The notes below the pieces were generated by a model. It saw only the letters and a program-made list of their open reading frames with translations, made no database searches and was not told the DNA's origin. This document shows, piece after piece, positions 19,435-34,332 of a stretch of 64,000 nt of DNA. The stretch's first letter is position 1; each line of letters opens with the position of its first letter. Source of the stretch: Aerolutibacter ruishenii (GTDB taxonomy: Bacteria > Pseudomonadota > Gammaproteobacteria > Xanthomonadales > Xanthomonadaceae); contig NZ_VLKP01000002.1 of assembly GCF_007830115.1 (NCBI RefSeq), forward strand, positions 186,001 through 250,000, in the 5' to 3' direction. The translations under genes and the position numbers were made by a program.

Positions 19435-19593
19435 CCCACCCAACACCGCGTCCCCATCCGGGGGCGCGGACCGCCCCCTCACCCCCTCAGGGCGCAGGGT
19501 CAAACTCACCCCGTGCCCACCCGAAGCGCGACCTTGGCACCTTGCGCCCGCCCTCACCCGTAAAATGGCGGACCGCACCCCCGGCCGCCGCAA

Positions 19594-21303
19594 ATGCTCC
19601 GCATCACCGACCTCAAGCTGCCCCTCGACCATCCGCCCGAGGCGCTGGAAGCGGCAGTGCGCGCGCGGCTGGGCCTGCGCGCCGACGAGCCGGCGAGCGT
19701 GCACGTGTTCCGCCGCGGCCACGACGCGCGCAAGCGCGGCGACATCCAGCTGATCTACACCCTCGACGTCGACACTCCCCGCGCAGCCGAGTTGCTGGCG
19801 CGCGAACACGCCGCTGCAGACAGTGCCCCAAGCGGGGTATCCGGCGCTGCACCGGGCGCCTCGGCCCGCAAAGGCGAGTCGAAGGGCCAACCCAAACTCG
19901 GTCCCACCCCCGACACCACCTACAAACTCGTCACCCACGCCCCCGACGGGCTGACGGAGCGTCCCATCGTGGTCGGCTTCGGCCCCTGCGGCCTGTTCGC
20001 CGCGCTGCTGCTGGCGCAGATGGGCTTCCGCCCGATCGTGCTGGAGCGCGGCAAGGCCGTGCGCGAACGCACCCAGGACACCTGGGGCCTGTGGCGCAAG
20101 CGCGAGCTGACGCCCGAATCCAACGTGCAGTTTGGCGAAGGCGGCGCCGGCACCTTCTCCGACGGCAAGCTGTACAGCCAGATCAGCGACAAGGAACACC
20201 GCGGGCGCAAGGTGCTGCGCGAGTTCGTGCTGGCCGGCGCGCCGGAGGAGATCGAATACGTCAGCAAGCCGCACATCGGCACCTTCCGCCTGGTGTCGAT
20301 GATCCAGTCGATGCGCGAAGAGATCCTCCGCCTGGGCGGCGAGATCCGCTTCTCCGCGCGCGTGGACGACCTGCTGGTGGAGACTGACGCCGAAGGCGTG
20401 CGCCACGTGCGCGGCGTGAAACTGTCCGACGGCAGCGAACTGCACAGCGGCCACGTGGTGATGGCGCTGGGCCACAGCGCGCGCGACAGCTTCGAGATGT
20501 TGCACGCCCGCGGCGTGCACATGGAGGCCAAGCCGTTCTCGGTCGGCTTCCGCATCGAGCACCCGCAGTCGCTGATCGACCGAGCGCGCTTCGGCCCGCA
20601 GGCCGGGCATCCGCTGCTGGGCGCGGCCGACTACAAGCTGGTGCACCACGCCAGGAACGGGCGCGCGGTGTACAGCTTCTGCATGTGCCCCGGCGGCACG
20701 GTGGTGGCCGCGACCAGCGAACCGGGCCGGGTGGTGACCAACGGCATGAGCCAGTATTCGCGCAACGAGCGCAATGCCAACGCCGGCATCGTGGTCGGCA
20801 TCGAACCGGCGGACTTCGCCGAGTACGACAACAGCGGCTCGCCGCTGGCGGGCGTGGCGCTGCAGCGGCACTTCGAATCGCTGGCGTATGAGCTGGGTGG
20901 ACGCACCTACGATGCGCCGGGCCAGCTGGTCGGCGACTTCATCGCCAACCGTGCATCCACCGCGTTCGGCGAGGTGCAGCCGTCGTACAAGCCCGGCGTG
21001 CACCTGACCAACCTCGAGACCGCGCTGCCGCGCTACGCCATCGACGCGATCCGCGAGGCGTTGCCGGCATTCGGGAAGCAGATCAAGGGCTTCGACCGCG
21101 CCGATGCGGTGCTGACCGGCGTGGAGACACGCACTTCGTCACCAGTACGAATCACCCGCGGTGAAGATCTGCAGAGCCTCAACACCCGCGGCCTGTATCC
21201 GGCCGGCGAAGGCGCCGGCTATGCCGGCGGCATCCTCTCGGCGGGCGTGGACGGCATCCGCGTGGCCGAGGCGGTGGCGCGCGCGATCATGGCGCCGCGC
21301 TGA
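19594..21303 (+). CDS. FAD-dependent dehydrogenase (COG2509-like)
   Basis: A 569-residue flavoprotein. The N-terminal domain of about 100 residues (MLRITDLKLPLDHPPEALEA) is typical of this uncharacterised dehydrogenase group, followed by a low-complexity linker. The FAD site is PIVVGFGPCGLFAALLLAQM, with further signatures GGAGTFSDGKLYSQ, HIGTFRLV and a C-terminal LYPAGEGAGYAGGI. The electron acceptor and substrate are unknown. Its last 17 bases overlap the 3' end of the minus-strand GGDEF-EAL gene. Confidence 0.88.
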   Translation: MLRITDLKLPLDHPPEALEAAVRARLGLRADEPASVHVFRRGHDARKRGDIQLIYTLDVDTPRAAELLAREHAAADSAPSGVSGAAPGASARKGESKGQPKLGPTPDTTYKLVTHAPDGLTERPIVVGFGPCGLFAALLLAQMGFRPIVLERGKAVRERTQDTWGLWRKRELTPESNVQFGEGGAGTFSDGKLYSQISDKEHRGRKVLREFVLAGAPEEIEYVSKPHIGTFRLVSMIQSMREEILRLGGEIRFSARVDDLLVETDAEGVRHVRGVKLSDGSELHSGHVVMALGHSARDSFEMLHARGVHMEAKPFSVGFRIEHPQSLIDRARFGPQAGHPLLGAADYKLVHHARNGRAVYSFCMCPGGTVVAATSEPGRVVTNGMSQYSRNERNANAGIVVGIEPADFAEYDNSGSPLAGVALQRHFESLAYELGGRTYDAPGQLVGDFIANRASTAFGEVQPSYKPGVHLTNLETALPRYAIDAIREALPAFGKQIKGFDRADAVLTGVETRTSSPVRITRGEDLQSLNTRGLYPAGEGAGYAGGILSAGVDGIRVAEAVARAIMAPR

Positions 21304-24247
21304 CGGTCGCCGCCGCTGCCGGCGATGCGACCACGGCGGGCAGCGTGACCGCCGCCGGCCGCCCCAGCAGGTAGCCCTGGCCGAACTCGCACCCCAGGGC
21401 CAGCAGGGCCTGGCGCTGCGACTCGGTCTCGATGCCTTCGGCGATGACGTCCATGCCCAGCGCGCCGGCCAGCGCCAACACCGAGGCGACCACCGAGACG
21501 ATGTTCTCCTTGCCCGGCTGGCCAAGTTCGGCGACGAAACTGCGATCGATCTTGAGTACGCGCAGCGGGAACGTGTGCAGGTAACTGAGCGCGGAGTAGC
21601 CGGTACCGAAGTCGTCCAGCGCGGTGCGCACGCCGGCCGACTGCAGCCGCGCCAGGATGTCGCGCACGTGGTCGCTGTTGTCCAGCAGCGAGCCTTCGGT
21701 CACCTCGGTCAGCAACCGCGCGGGCGGCAACCCGGTGCGCGCCAGCACGTCGAGCAGGCGCCGGTCGAAATGCGCGTCGCGGAAGTGGCGCGGCGAGACG
21801 TTGATGGTGAGGTAGGTATCGCCCGGTTGCTGCGCGGCCAGGTGGCAGCTGAGTTCGAACATGCGCCAATCGATGGCGTCGATCGCGCCGCTGTCCTCGG
21901 CCACGGACAGGAAGCTGTCCGGGGCCAGCACGCCGCGGGTGGGGTGGCGCCAACGCAGCAGCGCCTCGTGGCCCACGACCTCGCCGGTGGACAGGCGCAC
22001 GATCGGCTGGAAGAACGGCTCGAAGTGGTCGTTGTGCAGGGCCTCGTGCAGCTCCGCCTCGACCGTGAGCACGTCCGTGGTGCGGTGCTTGAGCGAGTCG
22101 TCGAACAGCGCGTACTGCTTGCGGCCCAGGGCCTTGGCCCGGTACAGCGCCAGGTCGGCGTCGCGCAGCAGTTCGCTTGCATTGTGGTAACCATCGCCGG
22201 CCACCGCGATGCCGATGCTGGCCGACGGCGACAGCGTCTTGCCACCGATCTGCAGCGGCTCGGACAGCAGTTCGAGCAGTCGCTTGGCCACCCGCACCGC
22301 CACCTCGGGCGTGGCGATGTCGACCAGCAGGATCGCGAACTCGTCGCCGGCCAGGCGCGCGACCACGTCCGGTTCGCGCACACAGCGCACCATGCGCCGC
22401 GATACCTGCTGCAGGAACTCATCGCCGCCGCTGTGGCCGAGGCTGTCGTTGATGACCTTGAAGCGGTCCACGTCCAGGTACAGCAGCGCACAGCGCGGCC
22501 CATCCTGCTCGTGCATGTCCTCCAGCGCGCGCTCCAGCCGCTGCTGCAGCACGCCGCGGTTGGGCAGGCCGGTCAGCGCGTCGTGCTGCACCTCGTGTTC
22601 CAGCTGGCGCTGGATGCGTTCGCGCTCGCCGATCTCGCGACGCAGCTCGCGGGTACGCTCCTGCACCCGGTCTTCCAGTTGCGCGTAGGCCTGCTCGCGG
22701 ATCCGGGTGGCCCGGCGACGATTGAGCACGCTGGCAATCTGCGAGGCGACGAACTCCAGCAACTCCTGGTCGGTGGTGCCGTAGCCCACCGCCCCGTCGT
22801 AGCTGCGCACCGCGACCACGCCGCCGATTTCATCGCCAAAGCGCAGTGGCACGCCCAACCACGACACCGGCACCGGGCCAATCAGCGCAAGGTCCAGCTG
22901 CCTGCGGCGGTGCAGGTCGAAGATGTCGCTGGTGGCCAGCAGCTGCGGCTGGCCCTGGCGCATCACGTACTCGGTCAGGCCCTGGCCCGGGATCCGCGGC
23001 TCCGGAACCGCGTCCAGCTCGTCGGCGAAATACGCGAACTGCAGCGTGCGCCGTTCGTCGTCCAGCAGCGCGATGAAGAAGTTGCGCGCCTCGATCAGCT
23101 GCCACACCACCTCGTGGATGCGGTAGTAGAACGCGCGCTCGTCCAGGTCCGCGTTGGCCAGATCGGCGATCTGGAACAAAGCGGCCTGCAGGCGCTCGGC
23201 GCGCTGGCGCTCGACGATCTCCTGCTGCAGGCCACGGTTGGCCTCGGCCAACTCCACGGTGCGCAGGCGCACGTTGTGCTCCAGCGCCTCGGTGCTGCGT
23301 CGCCGGTCCAGTGCGGTCAGCAGGTGGCTGCCCACGAACGCCAGCAGCGCCTGGTCCTCGCCGGTGTACGACATGCCGGGCTCATAGCTCTGCACCACCA
23401 GTGCGCCGCGCACCTGGCCGTCGCCCAGCAGCGGTACGCCCAGCCAGTCGAACGCGTCGGTGCCGATCCGTCGCACCGGTCCCTCCAACTGGCGATGGAT
23501 CTGGTCGGTGGCGCCGCGCAGGGCCATGCCCTTGCGGATCACGTACCAGGTCAGCGAGTGCTCGATCTCATCCAGCGCGAATTGCTCGCCCGGCGCCGGG
23601 GCCGGATCCTTGACGTCGACGAAGTACAGCAGCTGGGCGGCATCGCTGGCCTCGTCGTACAGCACGATGAACAGGTTCTCGGCGTACATCAGCGTGCCGA
23701 CGATGGCATGGATGCCGCGTAGCAGCTCGGGCATGTCACGGCCGGAACCGGCCAGGTCGGAGATGGCGAACAACGCGCGCTGCAACTGCTCGGAGTGCTC
23801 CAGGCGGACCACCGAGTTCTCCAGTTCCATGACCCGGAGCAGGCCCCGCAGGCATTGGTCGATGGCGCCGGGCAGGGCGCCCAGTGCGGCGATCACGGCC
23901 CCGGTGCCCTCGGGGTCTTCGGGGTCCTCCAGTCGAAGGAGCAGCACGGCGCCGCTGTGGGGAAGCGGTATGCCCAGCCACGTCCCGTCGGTGGAGCGCC
24001 TGGGATGCTGGTCCTGCCACGCCTGCCACGCGACGGTTTCCGGCTTGTCGGCGTCGTGGAGACCGCCTGTTCCACTGGCTGCCGGTTTCAACACCACGCG
24101 TGCGTCCGCGACGCCGGGCGTGGCGTGTGCCAGCCGCCGCGCCACGGCAATGCCCTCGCCCAGGTTGCGGACCTCAAGCAGCTCACTGATACGTGAGATA
24201 CCGAGGTCGGCGATTGGCGGCAGCGATGCGGCGTGGTCGGACGGCAT
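21287..24247 (-). CDS. GAF-GAF-GGDEF-EAL c-di-GMP turnover protein
   Basis: A 986-residue cytosolic protein with a degenerate N-terminal sensor, two GAF domains (residues about 170-320 and 360-520), a coiled connector, GGDEF (about 555-715) and EAL (about 725-975). The cyclase site reads ARLAGDEFAILL, an AGDEF variant still found in active enzymes. The EAL domain keeps EALLRWRHP, TINVSPRHF, DDFGTGYSALSYL and VIAEGIET, so phosphodiesterase activity is likely. No membrane segments are seen. GAF domains suggest control by a small ligand. It overlaps convergently with the FAD dehydrogenase gene by 17 bases. Confidence 0.94.
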   Translation of the reverse strand: MPSDHAASLPPIADLGISRISELLEVRNLGEGIAVARRLAHATPGVADARVVLKPAASGTGGLHDADKPETVAWQAWQDQHPRRSTDGTWLGIPLPHSGAVLLLRLEDPEDPEGTGAVIAALGALPGAIDQCLRGLLRVMELENSVVRLEHSEQLQRALFAISDLAGSGRDMPELLRGIHAIVGTLMYAENLFIVLYDEASDAAQLLYFVDVKDPAPAPGEQFALDEIEHSLTWYVIRKGMALRGATDQIHRQLEGPVRRIGTDAFDWLGVPLLGDGQVRGALVVQSYEPGMSYTGEDQALLAFVGSHLLTALDRRRSTEALEHNVRLRTVELAEANRGLQQEIVERQRAERLQAALFQIADLANADLDERAFYYRIHEVVWQLIEARNFFIALLDDERRTLQFAYFADELDAVPEPRIPGQGLTEYVMRQGQPQLLATSDIFDLHRRRQLDLALIGPVPVSWLGVPLRFGDEIGGVVAVRSYDGAVGYGTTDQELLEFVASQIASVLNRRRATRIREQAYAQLEDRVQERTRELRREIGERERIQRQLEHEVQHDALTGLPNRGVLQQRLERALEDMHEQDGPRCALLYLDVDRFKVINDSLGHSGGDEFLQQVSRRMVRCVREPDVVARLAGDEFAILLVDIATPEVAVRVAKRLLELLSEPLQIGGKTLSPSASIGIAVAGDGYHNASELLRDADLALYRAKALGRKQYALFDDSLKHRTTDVLTVEAELHEALHNDHFEPFFQPIVRLSTGEVVGHEALLRWRHPTRGVLAPDSFLSVAEDSGAIDAIDWRMFELSCHLAAQQPGDTYLTINVSPRHFRDAHFDRRLLDVLARTGLPPARLLTEVTEGSLLDNSDHVRDILARLQSAGVRTALDDFGTGYSALSYLHTFPLRVLKIDRSFVAELGQPGKENIVSVVASVLALAGALGMDVIAEGIETESQRQALLALGCEFGQGYLLGRPAAVTLPAVVASPAAAATVSAAP

Positions 24248-24483
24248 GGTCGGATCGGTGGGTCAGGAGGGCGGGGAGTACCCCGTATCTGAATCCTAAC
24301 GGCGGCTTTCCATGAAACTTCAGCACGGGATGTGAGCCAATTTCTCGCCCACGGCCGCCCGGTGGCGCGGGACATCCTCGGCTGACGGCAAGGCACGGCG
24401 TCCGCCTAACGTCGATGGCCTTCGGTGCCGCTGCCTGGATCACAATGGCCGCCACGCCCATCCGCCATCCAAGGAGGCCCACG

Positions 24484-25488
24484 ATGCGCCGCTGGCTTCG
24501 CTCACTGCTTCCGGTCCTGTGCTGCGCACCGTTGCTCGCGCTGGCCGCCGAGCCTGCCTTCGGCCCCAACCTGGAAGGCTTCGATTACCCCTATCCGGTT
24601 GGCAGCTTCGCGTTCGTCTCGCAGGGCAAGCCCGTGAAGATGGATTACATGGACGTCAGGCCCGCCGCCCGGGCCAATGGCCGCACGGTGGTGCTGCTGC
24701 ACGGCAAGAACTTCTGCGGCGCGACCTGGGAGGGCAGCATCAAGGCGCTGACCAAGGCCGGTTACCGCGTCGTGGCACCGGACCAGATCGGCTTCTGCCG
24801 CTCGACCAAGCCCGACGGTTACCAGTACAGCTTCCACCAACTCGCGCACAACACCGCCGCGCTGCTCGACCACCTGGGCGTGGACAAGCACGTGGTGCTG
24901 GGCCATTCGATGGGCGGCATGCTGGCCACGCGCTACGCACTGCTGTACCCGCAGCGGGTCGAGAAGCTGGTGCTGGTGAACCCGATCGGGCTGGAGGACT
25001 GGCTGGCCAAGGGCGTGCCCTACACCCCCGCGGATGCCTGGTACCAGGGCCAGCTCAAGACCACCCGCGACGGGATCAAACAGTACCAGCTCACCACGTA
25101 CTACAACGGCGAATGGCGGCCGGAGTTCGACCGCTGGGTGGACATGTCAGCGGGCATGTTCAACGGGCCGGGGAAGGAAACCGTCGCTTGGCACGCGGCC
25201 CTGACCTTCGACATGATCATGACGCAGCCGGTGTACCACGAGTTCCCGCGCCTGCAGGTGCCGACGGTGCTGATCATAGGCGAGCACGACAACACCGCCA
25301 TCGGCAAACACCTGCTGCCGAAGGCGCAGCAGTCGACGGTGGGCGACTACCGCGCGATGGCGCGCGACGTGGCGGCGAAGATTCCGGGTGCGGTGCTGCA
25401 CCTGTACCCGGATCTTGCGCATTCGCCGCAGATACAGGACCCGGGGCGGTTTCATGCGGATTTGTTGAGGTTGCTGGGAGAGCGGTGA
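24484..25488 (+). CDS. Exported alpha/beta hydrolase
   Basis: A 334-residue hydrolase. The ATG at 24484 follows AAGGAGG at ideal distance and begins a signal peptide (RSLLPVLCCAPLLALAA). The fold has the oxyanion loop LLHGKNFCGATW, the nucleophile elbow GHSMGG (S142), a late aspartate in IIGEHDNTAIG and a histidine in DLAHSP, a complete catalytic triad. The substrate is unknown. The lower-GC island begins just after it. Confidence 0.9.
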   Translation: MRRWLRSLLPVLCCAPLLALAAEPAFGPNLEGFDYPYPVGSFAFVSQGKPVKMDYMDVRPAARANGRTVVLLHGKNFCGATWEGSIKALTKAGYRVVAPDQIGFCRSTKPDGYQYSFHQLAHNTAALLDHLGVDKHVVLGHSMGGMLATRYALLYPQRVEKLVLVNPIGLEDWLAKGVPYTPADAWYQGQLKTTRDGIKQYQLTTYYNGEWRPEFDRWVDMSAGMFNGPGKETVAWHAALTFDMIMTQPVYHEFPRLQVPTVLIIGEHDNTAIGKHLLPKAQQSTVGDYRAMARDVAAKIPGAVLHLYPDLAHSPQIQDPGRFHADLLRLLGER

Positions 25489-25772
25489 GTGCAGATGTGT
25501 ACTGACCCAGTACCGTCGATGGCGATGAGGTGGAATATCGCTGGCTGACGTAGTCAACGTGCCCGAATGATGTCCATGGCAACTGCCGACCCGAAGCGGA
25601 CATCGGCAACGACTGGGTCACTCGCAGGAAATTGGCCCTGACATACTGAGTTCCAGAGGGGCGCTCGAACACATGTGGCACATACAAAGCTATAGTCTCA
25701 ACCCGTGAGGCTGGAGGCGCTTAAATTCCACGCCAAATTCTATGCCATTGACACAGAAAGAAATTTGCCTCA
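25489..25772. other. Spacer before the methyltransferase island
   Basis: Base composition falls abruptly compared with the hydrolase gene upstream. No ORF is convincing. The 17-mer CCGACCCGAAGCGGACA at 25586-25602 recurs at 63574-63590 in the other low-GC region. No tRNA, integrase or clear direct repeat marks an insertion boundary. Confidence 0.5.
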
Positions 25773-28670
25773 GTGCCTTCCGCCCTTGCCAAAGCCCTTC
25801 AATCGTACGGCGCGCAGCCGGATCAGCTAGTCGAGCTCGCGGATAGCTCGCCTCGGGCGTTGCGCTACGCCGACCTAAAAAATGGGGATGAGGCCTGGTC
25901 GCCGCCAGTCGTAGCGGAGCATGAGCATGTCCCCCGGGTGTTCATCTTTGACGGTCGAAGCAAGTCCGGCGAAGTCTCCCAATCCATCGTTGACCAGTGG
26001 TGCCGGCGGATTCTGCTGCGTGGGGATCCCGCGTGGACTGCGATCCTCCGGCCCGGCCGGCTGGATGTGCTCTCGTTCGAGATCCATGGCACGGACGTAG
26101 CCACTTCAACAGAGTCGATCGCGCCGGATTCGGGCGGGCTTACGCGGTTCATCCACGACGTGCGCAGTGGCGCCGCCGACCTGCCGCGGCGTACGTACCT
26201 CAAGGATCTGCTCTCGGAGTCGATGCGGCAGGCCGTTGATCTGGGCGTATCGCCCATCGATGCCGTGTCGCTCGTCGGTTGGGGTCTGTTCTGGCGCTTT
26301 CTTGTGGACCGCGACTTGCTCGTGGGAAAAACGCCGGATGCCATCGCCGATGGCGCCAATTCATGGACAGATTGCCTCAACACAAAGGGTCGTGCCCTAA
26401 AGACGCTGAAATGGCTGGAGGGCACCTTCAATGGTGGCTTGCTGCCGTTCGAGACGTCGCCCAAGGACTACGCGCCAGAAGTGTTCTCGCAGGTGCTCGG
26501 GAACATTGCGGCCGGCGCTACGCCACAAGGCCAACTGCGCCTGCCTACCGATTGGGACGAAATCAACTTCTCCCATGTTCCGGTGGGCCTGCTCAGCGAA
26601 GTCTACGAGGCGTTCGCAACGGCGCTCGATGCTCCCAACGCAAAGAAGGCCAGCATCCACTACACGCCACAGCACATCGCCGAGTTCGTGGTCGGCGAAG
26701 CGCTCAGCGCCATCCGGGACGTTGATCGTCCCCGTGTACTAGATCCGGCAGTTGGGGCGGGTGTTTTCCTGATCTCCACGTTCCGTCATCTCGTACAGCG
26801 CGAATGGGAGAGAACAGGGACGCGGCCAAAGCGGCGGCAGATTCGGCGCATCCTCTCGAATCAGCTTTCGGCATTCGATGTGGACAAGCGTGCGTTGCGT
26901 CTGACGCAGCTCGGGCTCTACCTCACTGCCCTGGAACTCGATCCGAGTCCGACGCCTGTCGAAGACCTAAAGTTCGATGACCTCGAATCGGTGCTGCGGT
27001 TGCGCCATGAGATCGACGGGAGCCTTGCAGGTGTAGCGAAGGAAGATGCCGGCCAGTTCGATCTGGTCGTAGGTAATCCGCCATGGACCGGGCACGATAA
27101 CACCGCAAAGCGACGCTGGGTTGCCAATACAGACAAGACGTTCCTAGAGCGGCTCGGTTCGGAATCGAATTCGTTCGATTTGCCAGACGCCAATCCCGAC
27201 CTGGCGTTCTTGTGGCGCGCTGGCGAATGGGCGAAGCCCAAGGGGCAGATCGCGCTTGTTATTCATGCGCGCTGGTTGTTCGGGTTGTCGGAACGATTGC
27301 TTAAGGCGCGTAGCCGGATTTTCACTGCGTTCAACGTGACGGGTGTCTTGAATGGTGCCGCGCTTCGCCAGACAAGGGTGTGGCCAAACGTTACAGCTCC
27401 CTTTTGCCTTGTCTTTGCGCGGAATGAGGTTGCGCCAGGGGACGGCGCGTTCCAGTTTGTCAGCCCGTTCGTGGAAGCTGATGACACGAAGGAGCAAACG
27501 GTTCTCCGGGTTGATTGGGCCGATGCGCAGGCCGTTCCTCATGAGGAAGTTAGATCCACGCCGTGGATACTCAAGGCTCGCTTCCGAGGTGATCCTCTGG
27601 CGCGCCGCGCATTCGAGACGTTGCGTGCGGTCGGCGTTCCGCTCGGAAATTACCTGGACGGTCTAAAGCCGGGCCTGCGCTTCAGGAATGGCTATCAGGT
27701 TGGTGGCGAGGCCGGCACACAGCAATCCGCAAGGCAGATGCACGGAATGCCGGATCTGAAGAACACAGATGCCGATGAATTCCTCGTCACTACGTCGGAA
27801 CTCCCCAAGTTCAAGAGAAAGACGCTTCTGTTCCCGCGTAACCAGGCGATCTATAAATCGCCTTTGCTGCTCGTGCGGCAGACGATTCCGGCAGACCCGC
27901 TCCGACCGCGTGCGCTCCGCGCCGAATCACCAGTCGCATTTCACGAGTCGTTCCATGGAATCTCGTTCTCTGGAGTTGCCCGCGGAGCGGACCATGCAAG
28001 ATTGCTGCAAACATTTCTGCAATCGCAGATAAGTCCATTCGTGTCCTTGCTTATGGATGCGAGGTTCGGTGTCGAGCGCGATACGATCTACCAAGAAAGT
28101 CTCGATGCCATCCCAGTGGTCCCGCTTGACCGGCTTTCGGATGGCCAATTGGCTCAGATGCGGCAGATTTCAAAGGAGATGGAGGGCGGGCTCGGCGATG
28201 CGCAATTCGAGAGGCTGAACACATTCGTGTTCGACCTTTATGGGCTTGGAAATCTAGAGCGCCAGGCTATCGAGGACACGCTTCAAACGCGGGGGCCAAC
28301 ATCCGCGTCGGTCGGGCGGGCAGTGACTCCACCTGACAAAACAGAACGTGCGGTGTTCATCACGGCATTGAAGGATTCACTTGATGACGTGCTTCAGGCA
28401 TCGGGTCTCCAAACGACGATAGAAGAAGTGTCGGTCGGTAATATCCCGTGGCGAGTACTTTCCATCGCCACTCGCTCCGCTCCGAGAATGTCTTTGCCAG
28501 TGGACGCGCTACTCAAGGAGGCCGACGAGTCCGGCACAAGTCTGGTGGTGGTTCCCGTGAGCAAGTCGCATGTTTTCGTAGGCCTGCCAGACCGCTATCG
28601 GTATTGGACACGAACACAAGCGGTGCTCCTCGCACACGATCTCCTCGGAGGGTCGCTTGGCGATGGCTAA
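25773..28670 (+). CDS. N6-adenine DNA methyltransferase, Eco57I/type IIG-like
   Basis: A 965-residue protein predicted to methylate adenine in a specific DNA sequence. It has SAM motif I at residues 323-330 (LDPAVGAG) and catalytic motif IV NPPW at 435-438. Together they identify the gamma-class N6-adenine family, related to Eco57I, BREX PglX and type I HsdM. The N-terminal 280 residues are of unknown role, with no ExK nuclease motif that I can see. Residues about 590-880 probably form the target-recognition region. The only in-frame start is the GTG at 25773, with a weak ribosome-binding site. GC is visibly lower than in flanking genes, which suggests horizontal acquisition. The next gene overlaps its end by eight bases. 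Confidence 0.85.
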   Translation: MPSALAKALQSYGAQPDQLVELADSSPRALRYADLKNGDEAWSPPVVAEHEHVPRVFIFDGRSKSGEVSQSIVDQWCRRILLRGDPAWTAILRPGRLDVLSFEIHGTDVATSTESIAPDSGGLTRFIHDVRSGAADLPRRTYLKDLLSESMRQAVDLGVSPIDAVSLVGWGLFWRFLVDRDLLVGKTPDAIADGANSWTDCLNTKGRALKTLKWLEGTFNGGLLPFETSPKDYAPEVFSQVLGNIAAGATPQGQLRLPTDWDEINFSHVPVGLLSEVYEAFATALDAPNAKKASIHYTPQHIAEFVVGEALSAIRDVDRPRVLDPAVGAGVFLISTFRHLVQREWERTGTRPKRRQIRRILSNQLSAFDVDKRALRLTQLGLYLTALELDPSPTPVEDLKFDDLESVLRLRHEIDGSLAGVAKEDAGQFDLVVGNPPWTGHDNTAKRRWVANTDKTFLERLGSESNSFDLPDANPDLAFLWRAGEWAKPKGQIALVIHARWLFGLSERLLKARSRIFTAFNVTGVLNGAALRQTRVWPNVTAPFCLVFARNEVAPGDGAFQFVSPFVEADDTKEQTVLRVDWADAQAVPHEEVRSTPWILKARFRGDPLARRAFETLRAVGVPLGNYLDGLKPGLRFRNGYQVGGEAGTQQSARQMHGMPDLKNTDADEFLVTTSELPKFKRKTLLFPRNQAIYKSPLLLVRQTIPADPLRPRALRAESPVAFHESFHGISFSGVARGADHARLLQTFLQSQISPFVSLLMDARFGVERDTIYQESLDAIPVVPLDRLSDGQLAQMRQISKEMEGGLGDAQFERLNTFVFDLYGLGNLERQAIEDTLQTRGPTSASVGRAVTPPDKTERAVFITALKDSLDDVLQASGLQTTIEEVSVGNIPWRVLSIATRSAPRMSLPVDALLKEADESGTSLVVVPVSKSHVFVGLPDRYRYWTRTQAVLLAHDLLGGSLGDG

Positions 28671-29349
28671 ACGACCCTCCCTTGCGGATCCGCCTGCACA
28701 ACTTGCGGCAGAACCGGATCTTTCATCCGCCCATAAGCGAGCAATTGAAGGAGCGCTGCGATGGGCTTGGCAACAACTTGTTTCGGCAAATGACGTCGTA
28801 TTGAATGACGGTTCCGAGGAGGCCATCACGGCGGCGCTCGAAACCCAACTCGGTCGAATGGAGCACGGGCGCCGTGTTGCACCTGGGCTCAAGGACTTCG
28901 ACCACCCTGTTCGTGGCGCAAAGCAGTGCACGTCGGACGGGCGTATCGAGAAGCAACCCGATCTTACATTCAGGCCACCGACTTCCCGCTATCAACGGGT
29001 CACGAATACCGCCTGCTGGGGCTGTTTCGTCGAATGCAAGCTCATCGAAGATGGCCATGCCTCCCGCACGGTCGAGTCCTATAGCGACAAAGGCATTCGG
29101 CGATTCGCCATAGGTGAGTATGCGGCACGGATGCCATCCGCCATGATGATCGCGTTTGTACGCGGCAATAAGCAGCCGGCTGAGAGCCTTGAACCATTGC
29201 TCCCGCTGCATGGTGCAACAACCATCGCGCGTGGGAAGTCCGCGGACACCTGCTCCACACAACATCCTCGCATAGCGCTCTTTCCATCATGCGCTGACGT
29301 GAATCTCATACACCTTTGGTTGCTGGTTCCGACTAAGCTAGCAGCCTGA
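28663..29349 (+). CDS. PD-(D/E)XK-like protein, candidate restriction nuclease
   Basis: A 228-residue cytosolic protein of no family I recognise with certainty. It has a plausible PD-(D/E)XK core: D100 in QPDLTFRP and E124-x-K126 in FVECKLIE, followed by a helix with SYSDKGIRRFAIGEYAARMP and the strand MMIAFVRG. The spacing fits restriction endonuclease folds, where these residues bind the catalytic metal. The ATG at 28663 overlaps the methyltransferase stop, and GGAGGG lies upstream inside that gene, which points to coupled translation. Context and motif suggest the nuclease half of a restriction-modification pair. Nuclease activity is inference, not proven by similarity. Confidence 0.7.
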   Translation: MAKRPSLADPPAQLAAEPDLSSAHKRAIEGALRWAWQQLVSANDVVLNDGSEEAITAALETQLGRMEHGRRVAPGLKDFDHPVRGAKQCTSDGRIEKQPDLTFRPPTSRYQRVTNTACWGCFVECKLIEDGHASRTVESYSDKGIRRFAIGEYAARMPSAMMIAFVRGNKQPAESLEPLLPLHGATTIARGKSADTCSTQHPRIALFPSCADVNLIHLWLLVPTKLAA

Positions 29350-29486
29350 AAGCCACTGTCCTCGTACGCAACGAAAGCAGTGGCCGGGGGATGCTGAGGC
29401 GAAAGTACGGTCAGAGTCGAGTTTTTCTTTTTCTTGGTCCTACGACCGCTCTTGGCCGTAGGCGGACCTAACGCGGGAATCGACGA

Positions 29487-29514
29487 ACAAAAAAAGCCCC
29501 ATCAAAGACGGGGC
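29487..29514 (-). terminator. Intrinsic terminator for iorAB
   Basis: Read on the minus strand, GCCCCGTC-TTT-GATGGGGC forms an 8-bp stem with one G-U pair, followed by seven T residues. The G-U pair exists only on the minus strand, and the T-run also fits that direction. It lies 164 bases past the iorAB stop, beyond the structured repeat. Confidence 0.85.
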
Positions 29515-29545
29515 TTCTGCCTTTCAACCTCACCACCTGTCATCA

Positions 29546-29665
29546 GGTGGGAGGGTGTGGGCGCTGTGTCGCGCAAGAGCCGGCCATGGATGGCCGGCGG
29601 CCCGACTCCGCGCAGGACTGCGCGGACGGAGGGTCGGCGCGACACAGCGCCCGCGCCCTCCCACC
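29546..29665 (+). repeat. Structured dispersed repeat, copy B
   Basis: Arms at 29546-29574 and 29637-29665 pair over 29 nt with two exceptions, both G-U on the plus strand. The core (29575-29636) differs from the 4.1 kb copy at only about four of 62 positions, and two of those changes are compensatory within one hairpin (stem GCCGGCC/GGCCGGC here, GCGGGCC/GGCCCGC there). The arms share no sequence with copy A. The element ends 12 bases before the iorAB stop codon. Confidence 0.82.
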
Positions 29666-29677
29666 GTGCGACACCCC

Positions 29678-32600
29678 TTACGCCACCTTCACGATCCGCA
29701 GCGGGTTATCCCACTCCTTCAACAGCTCCGCCTCACGCAGCTTCGCTTTGTGCAGGTGATCTTCCTTGACGTGCCCGTAGCCCCGGATGTGCTCCGGAAT
29801 CGAAGCAATCTCAGCCGCCAGATCCACGTTGCCCCGATCCAGCTTCGGCAACAACCCTTCCACCGTCTTGATGTAATCGGCAATCAACTGCCGCTCCATC
29901 TTCCGCTCCTCGGTGTAACCGAAGATGTCCAGCTTGGTGCCGCGCAGCTTGCGCAGCTTCGCCAGCCACTTGAACGCGGTCAGCACCCACGGCCCGTACT
30001 CGCCCTTGACCAGCTGCCCATCGGCATTGCGCTTGGCCAGCAGCGGCGGCGCCAGGTGGAACTTCAGCTTGAAGTCGCCGTCGAACTGCTGCTGCACCCG
30101 GCGCAGGAACTCGCCGCTGGTGTACAGGCGCGCCACTTCGTACTCGTCCTTGTACGCCATCAGCTTGAACGCATAGCGCGCCACCGCCTCGGTCAGGTCG
30201 GTGCTGCCCGGCGCCTTGCCCTGCTCGGCGTCGCGCACGCGGGTGACGAAACCGGCGTAGCCCTTGGCGTACTCCGCGTCCTGGTACTCGGTGAGGAACG
30301 CCACGCGACGCGCGATCAGCTCGTCCAGTGAGCGCGACAGGCGCTCGTCGTCGAGCGGCAGGAACGCGACGTTGTCGCCGCCGGTGTTGCTCGGCAGGTG
30401 GCGCAATTCGTCCTCGTTGCGTACCGACTTCAGCGGCGCGGCGTTGGCGCCCCACTCGTGGCCTTCCCACTCGGCGGCCCCGAGCATCGGCAGTGCGTGC
30501 GGGGTGGCTTCGGCGGCGGTCGGCGCGTTACGGATCAGCCCGGCGGCCTCGGCCACGGCGGCCGGGTCGATCACCGCCAGGCGGCCCCACGCGAACGCGG
30601 TCTTGTTCATTTCCACCGCGGCGCCGTTGAGCTCGATGGCGCGCATCAGCGAATCCATCGACAGCGGCACCAGGCCGCGCTGCCAGGCGTAGCCGAGGAT
30701 GAACAGGTTGGTGGCGATCGCATCGCCCATCAGCGCGGTGGCCAGTTGGGTGGCGTCCACCGCGTGCAGGCCTTCGCCGCCCAGGGCGCTGCTGATCGCG
30801 GCCATGATGTCGGTGGCCGGGAACTGCATGTCCGGGCGGGTGGTGAAGGTGCCGGGCATCGCTTCGTAGGTGTTGAGCACCACCTGCGCGCGGCCGCTGC
30901 GGATCTTCGACAGCACCCAGTAGTCATTCACCACGACCATGTCGCAGCCCAGCACCAGGTCGGCCTCGCCGGCGGCGATGCGCACCGCGTGGATGTCGTC
31001 CGGGGTCTTGGCGATGCGGATGTGGGTGGTGACCGCGCCGCCCTTCTGCGCCAGGCCGGTCTGGTCGAGCACGGTGGCGCCGCGGCCTTCCAGGTGGCCG
31101 GCCATGCCCAGCAGCGCGCCGATGGTGACCACGCCGGTGCCGCCGACGCCGGTCAGCAGGATGTTCCACGGCTGCGACAGGTCGCTGGCCACCTGCGGCA
31201 GCGGCAGGTTGGCGAGGCGGTCCTTGGCGCCGGAGCCCCCGCTCTTATTAAGCGCGCCCTTGCGCAGGCCACCGCCTTCGACGGTGACGAAGCTGGGGCA
31301 GAAGCCGGTGGTGCAGCTGTAGTCCTTGTTGCAGTTGGACTGGTCGATCTCGCGCTTGCGGCCGAACTCGGTTTCCTTGGGCAGCACCGACACGCAGAAC
31401 GACTTCTTGCCGCAGTCGCCGCAGCCTTCGCACACCAGCGAGTTGACCACCACGCGCTTCTGCGGGTCGACCATCTTGCCGCGCTTGCGGCGGCGGCGCT
31501 TCTCGGTGGCGCAGGTCTGGTCGTAGATCAGCACCGAGGTGCCCTTCACTTCGCGCAGGCGCTTCTGGATGGTGTCCAGTTCGCTGCGGTCATGGAACTC
31601 CATGTCGGCCGGGAACAGCTCGCGCTTGCTCCACTTCTTGATGTCGTCGGACAGCAGGATGATGGTGTGCACGCCTTCGCTGCGCACCTGGTGGGCGATC
31701 TGCGGCACGCTCAGGGTGCCGTCCACCGGCTGGCCGCCGGTCATCGCCACCGCGTCGTTGTAGAGGATCTTGTAGGTGATGTTGACGCCGGCCGCGATCG
31801 ACTGGCGGATCGCCAGCGAACCGCTGTGGAAGTAGGTGCCGTCGCCCAGGTTCTGGAACACGTGCGGGGTGTCGGTGAACGCCGCCTGGCCCGCCCACGT
31901 GACGCCTTCGCCGCCCATGTGGGTGAAGGTGTCGGTGTTGCGGTCCATCCACGTGACCATGTAGTGGCAGCCGATGCCGCCCAGCGCGCGCGACCCCTCC
32001 GGCACCTTGGTGCTGGTGTTGTGCGGGCAGCCGGAGCAGTAGTGCGGCACGCGCGGGAACTGCGCGCGCGGCAGGGCCAGCTCGGACTCCTTCTCGTCCA
32101 TCCAGCGCAGCACCTGCGCGATGCGCTCGGCGTTGCTGCCTTCCACCAGGCCCAGCTTCTGCATGCGGCGGCCGATGACGCCGGCGATGGTCGCCGGGGT
32201 CAGCTCGCCGGTGCTGGGCAGGATCCACTCGCCGGCCTCGTCGTACTTGCCGACGATGCTCGGGCGCTGGCCCGGCCAGTTGAACATGTACTCCTTCATC
32301 TGCCGCTCGATGAAGGCGCGCTTCTCCTCCACCACGACGATGTCCTGCAGGCCTTCGGCAAACGCGCGCAGGCCCACCGGCTCCAGCGGCCAGGTCATGC
32401 CGACCTTGTACACGCGGATGCCGAGGTCGGCGCAGGCCCGCTCGTCCAGGCCGAGGTATTCCAGCGCCTGCAGCACGTCCAGGTAGGACTTGCCAGTGGT
32501 GACGATGCCCAGGCGCGCGCGCGGCGAGTCGATCACCACCTTGTCCAGGCGGTTGGCGCGCGCGAAGCTCTGCGCGGCCTTGACCGCGTAGCGGTGCAGG

Positions 32601-33403
32601 CGCATCTCCTGGTTCATCGGCGGGTCCGGCCAGCGGATGTTGAGTCCGCCTTCCGGCATCTCGAAGTCGTCCGGGGTGATGATCTGCAGCGCCATCGGGT
32701 CGGCTTCGACCGAGGCGGAGGACTCGACGGTTTCGGCGATGGTCTTGAAGCCGACCCAGCGGCCGGTGAAGCGGCTCATTTCCCAGCCGATCAGGCCCAT
32801 CTCGAGGATGTCCTGCACGCCGGCCGGGTTGAGGATCGGCATCATCGCGCTGACGAATTCGTCCTCGCTGCCGTGCGGCAGGGTGGAGGAGCGGCAGGCG
32901 TGGTCGTCGGCGGCCAGCGCCAGCACGCCGCCGTAACGGCCGGTGCCGGCGGCGTTGGCGTGCTTGAACACGTCGCCGCAGCGGTCCACGCCGGGGCCCT
33001 TGCCGTACCACATGCCGTACACGCCATCGACCTTGGCGCCGGGGAACAGGTTGGTCTGCTGGGTGCCCCAGACCATGGTGGCGCCCAGGTCCTCGTTCAG
33101 GCCCGGGGTGAACTTCACGCCGGCCTTCTCCAGGTACTTCTTGGCGCGCCACAGCTCCAGGTCGAAGCCGCCCAGCGGGCTGCCGCGGTAGCCGGAGATG
33201 AAGCCGCCGGTGTTGAGGCCGTTGGCCTCGTCGCGCAGGCGCTGCATCAGCGGCAGGCGCACCAGGGCCTGCACGCCGCTCAGGTAGATGCGGCCCTTTT
33301 CGCGGCTGTACTTGTGCTCGAGGGTGTAGTCGAGGTCGAGGACGTCGTGGGTCAACAACGACTTCGCGGATTCGGGCGAGCTGAGTTCGGCGGTGCTGGT
33401 CAT
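29678..33403 (-). CDS. Fused indolepyruvate ferredoxin oxidoreductase (IorA-IorB type)
   Basis: A 1241-residue 2-oxoacid:ferredoxin oxidoreductase in which the alpha and beta (gamma-domain) parts are joined, as usual in proteobacteria. It would oxidatively decarboxylate aryl-pyruvates, or related branched 2-oxoacids, to acyl-CoA with TPP and Fe-S clusters. Visible parts are the N-terminal pyrimidine-binding domain (FISGYRGSPLGGFDLELW), a TPP-binding central region (YCSGCPHNTSTKVPEG, GGIGCHYMVTWMDR), cysteine clusters CEGCGDCGKKSFC and CNKDYSCTTGFC, and the gamma domain (GVGGTGVVTIGALLGMAG). The start at 33403 has CGGAG upstream and gives MTSTAELSSPESAK. A terminator lies downstream. Confidence 0.95.
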   Translation of the reverse strand: MTSTAELSSPESAKSLLTHDVLDLDYTLEHKYSREKGRIYLSGVQALVRLPLMQRLRDEANGLNTGGFISGYRGSPLGGFDLELWRAKKYLEKAGVKFTPGLNEDLGATMVWGTQQTNLFPGAKVDGVYGMWYGKGPGVDRCGDVFKHANAAGTGRYGGVLALAADDHACRSSTLPHGSEDEFVSAMMPILNPAGVQDILEMGLIGWEMSRFTGRWVGFKTIAETVESSASVEADPMALQIITPDDFEMPEGGLNIRWPDPPMNQEMRLHRYAVKAAQSFARANRLDKVVIDSPRARLGIVTTGKSYLDVLQALEYLGLDERACADLGIRVYKVGMTWPLEPVGLRAFAEGLQDIVVVEEKRAFIERQMKEYMFNWPGQRPSIVGKYDEAGEWILPSTGELTPATIAGVIGRRMQKLGLVEGSNAERIAQVLRWMDEKESELALPRAQFPRVPHYCSGCPHNTSTKVPEGSRALGGIGCHYMVTWMDRNTDTFTHMGGEGVTWAGQAAFTDTPHVFQNLGDGTYFHSGSLAIRQSIAAGVNITYKILYNDAVAMTGGQPVDGTLSVPQIAHQVRSEGVHTIILLSDDIKKWSKRELFPADMEFHDRSELDTIQKRLREVKGTSVLIYDQTCATEKRRRRKRGKMVDPQKRVVVNSLVCEGCGDCGKKSFCVSVLPKETEFGRKREIDQSNCNKDYSCTTGFCPSFVTVEGGGLRKGALNKSGGSGAKDRLANLPLPQVASDLSQPWNILLTGVGGTGVVTIGALLGMAGHLEGRGATVLDQTGLAQKGGAVTTHIRIAKTPDDIHAVRIAAGEADLVLGCDMVVVNDYWVLSKIRSGRAQVVLNTYEAMPGTFTTRPDMQFPATDIMAAISSALGGEGLHAVDATQLATALMGDAIATNLFILGYAWQRGLVPLSMDSLMRAIELNGAAVEMNKTAFAWGRLAVIDPAAVAEAAGLIRNAPTAAEATPHALPMLGAAEWEGHEWGANAAPLKSVRNEDELRHLPSNTGGDNVAFLPLDDERLSRSLDELIARRVAFLTEYQDAEYAKGYAGFVTRVRDAEQGKAPGSTDLTEAVARYAFKLMAYKDEYEVARLYTSGEFLRRVQQQFDGDFKLKFHLAPPLLAKRNADGQLVKGEYGPWVLTAFKWLAKLRKLRGTKLDIFGYTEERKMERQLIADYIKTVEGLLPKLDRGNVDLAAEIASIPEHIRGYGHVKEDHLHKAKLREAELLKEWDNPLRIVKVA

Positions 33404-33607
33404 GCGTGGCTCCGGGCGCGGCGTGGGGGCCGGCGGCGTGGCGGCGGGGCGGGTGGCGGGGGAAAAGGGGGGCGTTGTCGCGGGGGCAACGGACCGGGGT
33501 GCAAAACCGGGCAATTGTACCAGCGACCAAAGTCGTAGCCCGGTCGGGACGTCCCGTGCGCGACCCGCAGCGGGTAGGATTCAAAGGGCCATACAGGGGG
33601 AAATGCC

Positions 33608-34237
33608 ATGCAAGTTCGAGGTTTGCTGCTGGCCGTGGGGCTGTTGCTGGCCACTGGAGCGCAAGCGCAGACGCTGCCCAAGCCCGCGGAGTTCTATTTC
33701 GAGAACGATGCGCTGGCCATGAAGCCCATCGTGGCGGTGCGCGAAACCGGCGAAGCCGCCACCGAGAAACTGCTGCGCGCCATCCAGCGCAATCCGCGCG
33801 GCGTGGCCGAGCGTGCGCAGCTGGCCCACATCGCCATGGAGGCGGGCCGCGTCGAGCTGGGCCGCCAGCTTTACGACGACGCGCTGCTGCGGGTCACCAC
33901 CAGCGACGCGCTGTACCGGCCGCTGCTGTGGAATTACGGCTGGGACCTGTACCGCTCCGGCGACGACCAGGCCGCGCTCCGGCAGTGGCTGCAACTGGTC
34001 GCGGCCCGCAACTCCACCGCCCACTGGATCCCCATGACGCTGGCGATGGTGCTGTGGTCGCTGGACCGCCGCGACGAGGCGGTCCAGTGGTACGCCGCCG
34101 CGGTGCGCAGCGAGCCCACCCAGTGGGCCACGACGGCACGCCATGCCGAGCTGCTGCCCGGCTGGACGGCGTCCGAGCGCGCCACGCTGGCCGAGGTCCA
34201 GGCCGCCTGGGCGGCCAATCCGCCGACCTGGCCGTAG
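33608..34237 (+). CDS. Exported tetratricopeptide-repeat protein
   Basis: A 209-residue protein with a signal peptide (LLLAVGLLLATGAQAQ). Helical repeats (AERAQLAHIAMEAGRVELGR, LWNYGWDLYRSGDDQAALRQ, TLAMVLWSLDRRDEAVQWY) have TPR spacing, suggesting a periplasmic protein-protein interaction scaffold. The start at 33608 follows GGGGGAAATGCC. Partner and role are unknown. It lies just upstream of the REC-EAL gene on the same strand, 95 bases apart. Confidence 0.8.
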   Translation: MQVRGLLLAVGLLLATGAQAQTLPKPAEFYFENDALAMKPIVAVRETGEAATEKLLRAIQRNPRGVAERAQLAHIAMEAGRVELGRQLYDDALLRVTTSDALYRPLLWNYGWDLYRSGDDQAALRQWLQLVAARNSTAHWIPMTLAMVLWSLDRRDEAVQWYAAAVRSEPTQWATTARHAELLPGWTASERATLAEVQAAWAANPPTWP

Positions 34238-34332
34238 CCCTGCCGGGCCCGGCAGCGCCTTTGCCCGGGTCCCTCGCGTTGTAACGGTGGGCACGCTACA
34301 GTCGGACCGGCCCACCCAGCACCGAGGAACGG

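Follow-up and report, generated by a model that had tools for sequence, protein, structure and literature searches.

Fused MmeI-like restriction enzymes, in which one recognition domain serves both activities, can swap their recognition, while the methyltransferase CamA is solitary and has a conserved specificity. Among restriction endonucleases, BamHI has an E-x-E motif and BglII an E-x-Q, where the protein described here has E-x-K. We have analyzed two adjacent genes of Aerolutibacter ruishenii (NCBI RefSeq assembly GCF_007830115.1), which lie in a 64,000-nucleotide stretch of contig NZ_VLKP01000002.1 (positions 186,001 to 250,000), hereafter the window, in whose numbering all coordinates are given. 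The first gene encodes an N6-adenine DNA methyltransferase and the second a nuclease-like partner. Together, on the strength of sequence comparisons and structural models, they probably form a Type II-like restriction-modification system of two genes, whose nuclease belongs to an undescribed family. The pair has the following features.

25773-28670, + strand: gene for an N6-adenine DNA methyltransferase of the gamma class (Eco57I / N6_Mtase), 965 residues, GTG start (Pfam, AlphaFold2, VIA-align)
28663-29349, + strand: gene for the PD-(D/E)XK nuclease-like partner, 228 residues, ATG start, presumed restriction endonuclease (conservation, AlphaFold2, VIA-align)
28663-28670, + strand: 8-base overlap of the methyltransferase and partner reading frames (coordinates of the open reading frames)
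26187-26582, + strand: helical connector of the methyltransferase, about residues 139-270 (AlphaFold2 helices, starts of VIA-align rows, co-variation)
26739-26768, + strand: methyltransferase motif I, LDPAVGAGVF, residues 323-332 (translation, conservation)
27075-27086, + strand: methyltransferase motif IV, NPPW, residues 435-438 (translation, conservation)
27693-28172, + strand: part of the putative target-recognition region, residues 641-800, approximate limits (inferred from the VIA-align alignment with CamA)
28960-28962, + strand: codon of partner D100, presumed catalytic (D in 54/55)
29032-29040, + strand: codons of partner E124-C-K126, presumed catalytic (E and K each in 55/55)

A first-pass annotation, made from the letters of the window, had described a two-gene locus in which the methyltransferase frame overlaps that of a 228-residue partner by eight bases, and the coordinates of the two open reading frames (ORFs) agree. 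This overlap likely entails translational coupling. The same annotation had noted a composition lower in guanine plus cytosine (GC) than both flanks and the lack of a separate specificity gene, and both points hold. In 1-kb windows, GC is 0.57-0.62 over the pair and 0.66-0.73 elsewhere within 15000-40000, the window at 25000-25999 being transitional (0.61), and the ORF list offers no third plausible gene in 25488-29678.

The first gene was thought to encode an Eco57I-like N6-methyltransferase, with which both family matches and predicted fold agree. The protein matches N6_Mtase (8.6e-16), Eco57I (1.2e-11) and MmeI_Mtase (2e-6) in Pfam, and its best PADLOC model is a Type IIG enzyme (1.1e-22). 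An AlphaFold2 model built from 47 sequences (predicted local distance difference test, pLDDT, 84; predicted template modeling score, pTM, 0.86) superposes on CamA (7rfk) over residues 269-825, with a VIA-align Z of 28.5 and a root-mean-square deviation (rmsd) of 3.8 for 480 aligned residues. MmeI (Z 25.6), BrxX (24.9), BsaXI (23.9), DrdV (23.4) and M.BseCI (23.3) also align. The rows of MmeI, BrxX, BsaXI and DrdV start at residue 138-142, just where the model has helices between residues 141 and 247. CamA and M.BseCI appear to lack the long N-terminal part, since their alignments begin only at about model residue 269 or 286. Foldseek places the Type IIG enzyme BpuSI first (2.1e-17). We aligned the window protein with those of 46 other loci, leaving out 13 of 59 loci (57 genome and 2 viral) whose methyltransferase ORF is shorter than 950 residues or falls below the score limit. 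The LDPAVGAG (residues 323-330) and NPPW motifs stand where they had been read: in motif I, L323, D324, G328, G330 and F332 are invariant in the 47 methyltransferases, as is the whole of motif IV. The invariant residues of this alignment include no E-x-K in the N-terminus. Overall, the first gene product looks, from its model, like a gamma-class methyltransferase forming N6-methyladenine (m6A), that carries a target-recognition region of its own as well as the helical connector found in fused restriction enzymes.

As for the partner, its lack of resemblance to any nameable restriction enzyme family was confirmed. In Pfam, NCBIfam and PADLOC, neither the window protein nor our partner alignment of 55 members, from which three short or cut sequences (L049, L057 and L058) were excluded, has a meaningful family score. 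The few weak library matches concern one or two members each, a Pfam scan of 13 diverse members returned no family at a meaningful score, and a profile of the 55 partners run against PDB sequences found no restriction enzyme at E <= 5. Conservation in 55 members rules out a chance ORF. Ten residues are invariant (P99, E124, K126, Y140, G144, Y153, H201, R203, H217 and W219), D100 is kept in 54 of 55 partners and E52 in 53, and the window protein retains all twelve. The sole D100 exception, which has S instead, adjoins a broken methyltransferase in two short pieces and is probably a decaying copy (L073:2-2541).

The first-pass annotation had placed D100 and E124-x-K126 in a strand-helix context and had named structure prediction as a check. 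The AlphaFold2 model of the partner (pLDDT 82, pTM 0.82) runs helix-helix-strand(D)-strand(ExK)-helix-strand-helix-strands. D100 sits just ahead of strand 101-103, E124 and K126 lie within strand 121-129, and a helix follows at 137-149. When the 1000 best Foldseek matches were realigned with VIA-align, OkrAI came first (Z 8.6, rmsd 3.7, 149 aligned). It heads seven top rows shared with BamHI (three entries, 7.9), BglII (7.6) and BstYI (two entries, 7.3) that span Z 8.6-7.0 and 136-150 residues, though the tool warns that a Z below 8 can reflect a common arrangement, and only rank 1 exceeds 8. McrBC, NucC and others follow at Z of about 6 and below. The low-ranking matches of Foldseek itself (Mus81-Eme1, BglII and unrelated proteins) were too mixed to be used. 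With moderate confidence, we assign the modeled partner a PD-(D/E)XK nuclease fold, because restriction enzymes fill each of the seven best rows and the conserved residues sit where this fold requires them.

The two genes are strictly linked. When named genomes were scanned with a methyltransferase alignment, which takes no account of the partner, 57 loci came out, and in 55 of them the next ORF matches a partner profile built from 13 members (window plus plasmids). Of the two loci without it, one ends inside the methyltransferase at a contig end (L017) and the other is a broken copy (L069). At L016, the partner is one annotated ORF further on, the intervening ORF being the methyltransferase tail. 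The titles of the records give Pseudomonadota, Acidobacteria, Planctomycetes and Chloroflexi as sources, and many of these loci are metagenome-assembled. Since gene order and catalytic residues recur across these loci, the pair is more than chance. On plasmids, 48 records match the methyltransferase, and a partner-family gene comes next in 18 of the 20 inspected, each time annotated as "hypothetical protein". Because the first 12 plasmid partners had been taken into the profile for their position, matching it does not count as separate evidence in their case; the D, E and K columns of these 12 are invariant. Among 398 genomes drawn evenly from the phylum, five (our own included) are carriers, all with both genes adjacent on one strand; in one of them the partner, and in a second one the methyltransferase, was found only with wider profiles. 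The linkage in 55/57 loci and in 5/5 carriers rules out an orphan methyltransferase; two remote plasmid exceptions are considered below. Of the two findings that the first-pass annotation had said would refute it, a partner model lacking the PD-(D/E)XK fold and related methyltransferases that regularly stand alone, neither was obtained.

Closer to home, a methyltransferase match was found in three of 40 relatives, our own included; the others are G332, which carries the pair, and G354, whose remote version has its partner. Among 321 genomes of the class, only our own and G262, which has the partner too, match the methyltransferase at 1e-30. One further class genome (G174) has a weak partner match (E 3.8e-4) with one internal stop. 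Both viral contigs that match the methyltransferase profile carry the pair, and the other two of the four viral loci (L076 and L077), having no profile match at 1e-20, were set aside as generic enzymes. A partner-only pattern scan of named genomes gave 65 stretches and 0 relatives, while phage records gave eight weak matches at E 0.5-0.7 that we judged not credible. The partner alignment proved too weakly conserved for scanning viral sequences. The distribution, patchy and including plasmids, argues for horizontal spread. Together with the variable chromosomal slot described below, this shows that the pair moves horizontally. In two loci (L146 and L147, from G499 and G538), the pair adjoins genes that, judged from translations alone, resemble conjugation genes, which we take to be TraG/VirD4- and TrbB-like. 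In four others, the methyltransferase is split into two reading frames while the partner persists (L008:9989-12978, L060, L064 and L065), either through sequencing errors or because these are decaying copies.

We then considered how the nuclease might find its site. All 1081 pairs of the 47 methyltransferases align through the recognition part and none loses it, which rules out recognition-domain exchange within this subfamily. In the 80 pairs with a catalytic-domain identity of at least 0.75, mean identity over residues 641-800 is never below 0.46, although single 25-residue windows fall to 0.12. A fused Eco57I-type enzyme (L011:9595-13725), whose gene immediately follows the pair on a plasmid of Bradyrhizobium, served as a control. 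It shares 48% identity with three other enzymes, all of about 1360 residues, over residues 1-843 and nothing beyond, while these three align mutually over nearly their whole length at 62-71%. Judged by these alignments, the recognition half of the L011 enzyme is swapped. A viral scan for the control enzyme found 0 relatives. The lack of swapping in the subfamily is as expected if methyltransferase and nuclease each read the site, and that the nuclease does so by itself has, within restriction-modification, somewhat less than an even chance in our estimate.

Co-variation pulls in another direction. Given the catalytic domain, it is the helical connector (residues 161-270) that tracks the partner best, with a partial r of 0.57, followed by residues 721-800 (0.48), 641-720 (0.30), the N-terminus (0.27), 881-964 (0.24), 801-880 (0.14) and 601-640 (0.03). 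The sequence signal at the connector cuts against an autonomous nuclease and fits physical contact between the two proteins. The pair might thus be a split Type IIG-like enzyme, whose nuclease would be unspecific by itself and would cleave DNA only while docked on the connector of the methyltransferase, target recognition being supplied by the latter. The connector and recognition-domain build, found also in MmeI, DrdV and BpuSI, favors this arrangement, as do the translational overlap, which suggests matched amounts of both proteins, and the chance that the recognition half varies in the wider family. Systems that share recognition nevertheless swap it, as the control family does and the 47-member subfamily, with 0/1081 pairs losing the recognition part, does not; the partner also matches free-standing Type IIP nucleases in size and in predicted fold. 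We therefore rank the autonomous nuclease first and the docked one, which we hold possible but rather doubtful, second. A frozen target is, in any case, proposed for the 47-member subfamily only.

The start of the locus varies among relatives. Our upstream survey reached as far as 1.2 kb and took in 58 loci, namely the window, 46 others whose methyltransferase is full-length and 11 from plasmids. Of the 57 relatives, 39 have a small gene ahead of the pair, which belongs to one of three kinds, two being helix-turn-helix regulators. The first kind, found in 22 loci (annotated XRE in L006 and L007), encodes an XRE-like protein of about 97 residues, with Pfam helix-turn-helix matches below cut-off only. 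A family of about 150 residues occurs in 13, has no Pfam match in the three members tested, and is a regulator only by guess. LexA-like repressors occur in four loci (L037, L052, L054 and L056); the two tested carry LexA_DNA_bind and Peptidase_S24 (Pfam), and in L052, L054 and L056, whose titles name acidobacteria, the gene is <=5 bases from the pair. This suggests DNA-damage control of the pair in some hosts. No upstream gene recurs in the remaining 19 of 58 loci, window included, and upstream proteins of 18 relatives gave no tblastn line at E <= 10 in window 23000-30000. RefSeq annotates a MerR-family gene upstream in L014 and L115. At the other junction, the partner start shows a 4-base overlap in 43 of 57 related loci, when the ATG nearest the methyltransferase stop is preferred.

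The LexA-like regulators in four loci, and the presence of McrC and NucC in the partner fold list at Z 5.6-6.1, would suit another reading, that of an abortive-infection effector or modification-dependent nuclease with the methyltransferase as its antidote or marker, in place of the classical cutting of unmarked DNA. We consider this improbable. The best fold matches of the partner are site-specific Type II enzymes, the methyltransferase resembles a complete site-specific m6A enzyme, and the annotated plasmid loci, whose gene tables are incomplete, reveal no third recurring gene beyond the small upstream ones. Returning to restriction-modification, one could picture a distinct split architecture: a Type IIG-like methyltransferase minus its nuclease domain, a small BamHI-fold nuclease supplied in trans and docked on the connector, a recognition frozen across a multi-phylum subfamily, and an exchangeable switch (XRE-like, 150-residue or LexA-like). 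This composite scheme is speculative, and we would give it only about one chance in several.

The genomic setting points toward defense. Comparison with one congener (G321), which aligns to window 19558-21281 at 88% and to 29491-34247 at 91%, defines the following slot.

21304-29490, no strand: variable slot between two conserved genes, here holding the pair (alignment with the congener G321)

In that congener, the only one searched, about 2 kb replaces all window DNA between 21281 and 29491. The bordering genes are, by reading of their translations, FAD-oxidoreductase-like (19594-21303) and indolepyruvate ferredoxin oxidoreductase-like (29678-33514), the latter being the right neighbor of the pair, on the opposite strand. 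The left neighbor (24415-25488) reads as an alpha/beta-hydrolase-like gene. The congener slot encodes a 571-residue protein (L105:9998-11713) whose first 205 residues match the PADLOC candidate PDC-S49 (3.4e-21) and which also matches KAP_NTPase weakly, below cut-off; the slot may be a defense hot spot. No convincing direct repeats were seen at the insert borders. GGDEF/EAL-like and alpha/beta-hydrolase-like genes (21287-25488, again named by reading) are likewise missing from the congener slot. Downstream of the pair, window 29546-29665 holds a hairpin-rich intergenic element (29-nucleotide arms, 93% complementary), and a 79-bp stretch at window 4108-4185 matches the congener's copy at 89%, so that this is probably a repeated element.

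In the 23 loci with long flanks, 92 flanking ORFs match 43 PADLOC families at 1e-10, as against 4 families (subtilase, mad2 and two DrmC models) for 91 control ORFs, these counts being of families and not of proteins, such that several AbiE models may share one protein. Defense genes are plentiful around the pair. The 25 families listed include DarT and DarG (two members each), AbiEi/AbiEii, Lit, DrmC, REase_II and dGTPase, and annotated plasmid neighbors of the pair include SIR2, TIR, DarT, AbiE, caspase-like and toxin-antitoxin genes. One could still argue that the pair has no role in defense and joins an epigenetic methyltransferase to an unrelated, co-transcribed DNA-processing protein, which the resemblance to CamA would favor. 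The strict linkage, the conserved nuclease residues and the neighborhood itself speak against this, and of all the explanations weighed here we give it the least credence.

The mechanism that we propose for a restriction-modification pair is as follows. The methyltransferase would mark an adenine in a specific sequence of host DNA, for which its fold and motifs are strong grounds. The partner would cleave DNA, a fairly strong expectation from its fold and conserved residues. The gene pairing suggests that it would cut only unmethylated copies of the methyltransferase's site, and pairing and neighborhood suggest that the system would protect against phages or plasmids. The overlapping genes would probably be translationally coupled. 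In the 47-member subfamily, a recognition region that appears to be of one type, co-varying with the nuclease, is what would be expected if both proteins read the same site. The earlier suggestion of an undescribed restriction or anti-phage unit is thus supported, as a prediction from sequences and models. Neither the papers searched nor the family libraries scanned gave a description of the pair; this counts for little, as the search did not extend to REBASE or to most subscription papers. PMC12255303 is about a repressor of Type I systems and not about this pair.

Several points weigh against this proposal. The restriction-modification activity is deduced from genes and models. For the partner, Foldseek alone gives no PDB match at E <= 0.001, and its VIA-align Z values (7-8.6) lie close to what the tool describes as the usual best value, 7 to 8, of models that have no clear match. 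At a few otherwise almost constant positions the window partner differs from the family (A155 against W in 54 of 55, S141 against C in 52, A205 against F in 52), so this copy could be impaired. Two remote plasmid methyltransferases, from a haloarchaeon (L113) and a Levilactobacillus (L114), have no partner. Six others from plasmids (H44-H47, H50 and H51) align to the window protein only as far as residues 439-565, at 20-28% identity, and therefore other recognition types may exist in the wider family. Co-variation was computed on related loci. Finally, the control ORFs came from 20 arbitrary stretches of nine genomes by a crude gene caller, and DrmC models match them too.

The partner family, so far "hypothetical protein" in 18 plasmid records, now gains a catalytic motif and a profile. 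The pair would add a recurrent, mobile restriction system to defense catalogs that at present see only the methyltransferase. Should the subfamily really have a frozen recognition sequence, the targets of dozens of loci could be predicted from a single methylome, and one might ask what makes certain restriction systems keep their target when others exchange it.

How does the pair compare with known systems? A Type I system is ruled out, as there is no hsdS or helicase-bearing hsdR in 25488-29678, nor one annotated beside the pair in 12 plasmid loci. BREX (PglX/BrxX) and MADS (MAD2) have in common with the pair a methyltransferase superfamily, but its methyltransferase scores far under the NCBIfam cut-offs (46.9 of 900 and 35.9 of 720 bits), and no other BREX or MADS gene, including PglZ or BrxC, adjoins it in the window; scores and neighbors together rule out membership. 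CamA and M.BseCI are alike in methyltransferase core and recognition fold, at the Z of 28.5 and 23.3 given above. Type IIG and IIL enzymes (MmeI, DrdV, BpuSI and BsaXI) likewise unite a connector, a gamma-class methyltransferase and a recognition region in one chain. Unlike in these, the nuclease of the pair is a separate protein, in the window and in related loci, and the interchangeable recognition of such enzymes, seen as a swap in the control family of four, does not occur in the 47-member subfamily. In predicted overall fold and in size, the partner is like OkrAI, BamHI, BglII and BstYI, although a PDB-sequence profile search detects no sequence similarity. From Type II systems with separate methyltransferase and nuclease genes, the pair differs in its methyltransferase of about 1000 residues, with the connector and N-terminal extension typical of fused enzymes, and in a nuclease, of predicted cleavage activity, that is outside every Pfam, NCBIfam and PADLOC family. 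It nevertheless resembles Type II restriction-modification in its adjacent, co-inherited m6A methyltransferase and PD-(D/E)XK genes, its motifs I and IV, the small upstream regulator in many relatives, and the absence of any helicase or specificity gene. As a kind of system, then, our candidate belongs with the Type II-like restriction-modification units, to which it brings a new nuclease family.

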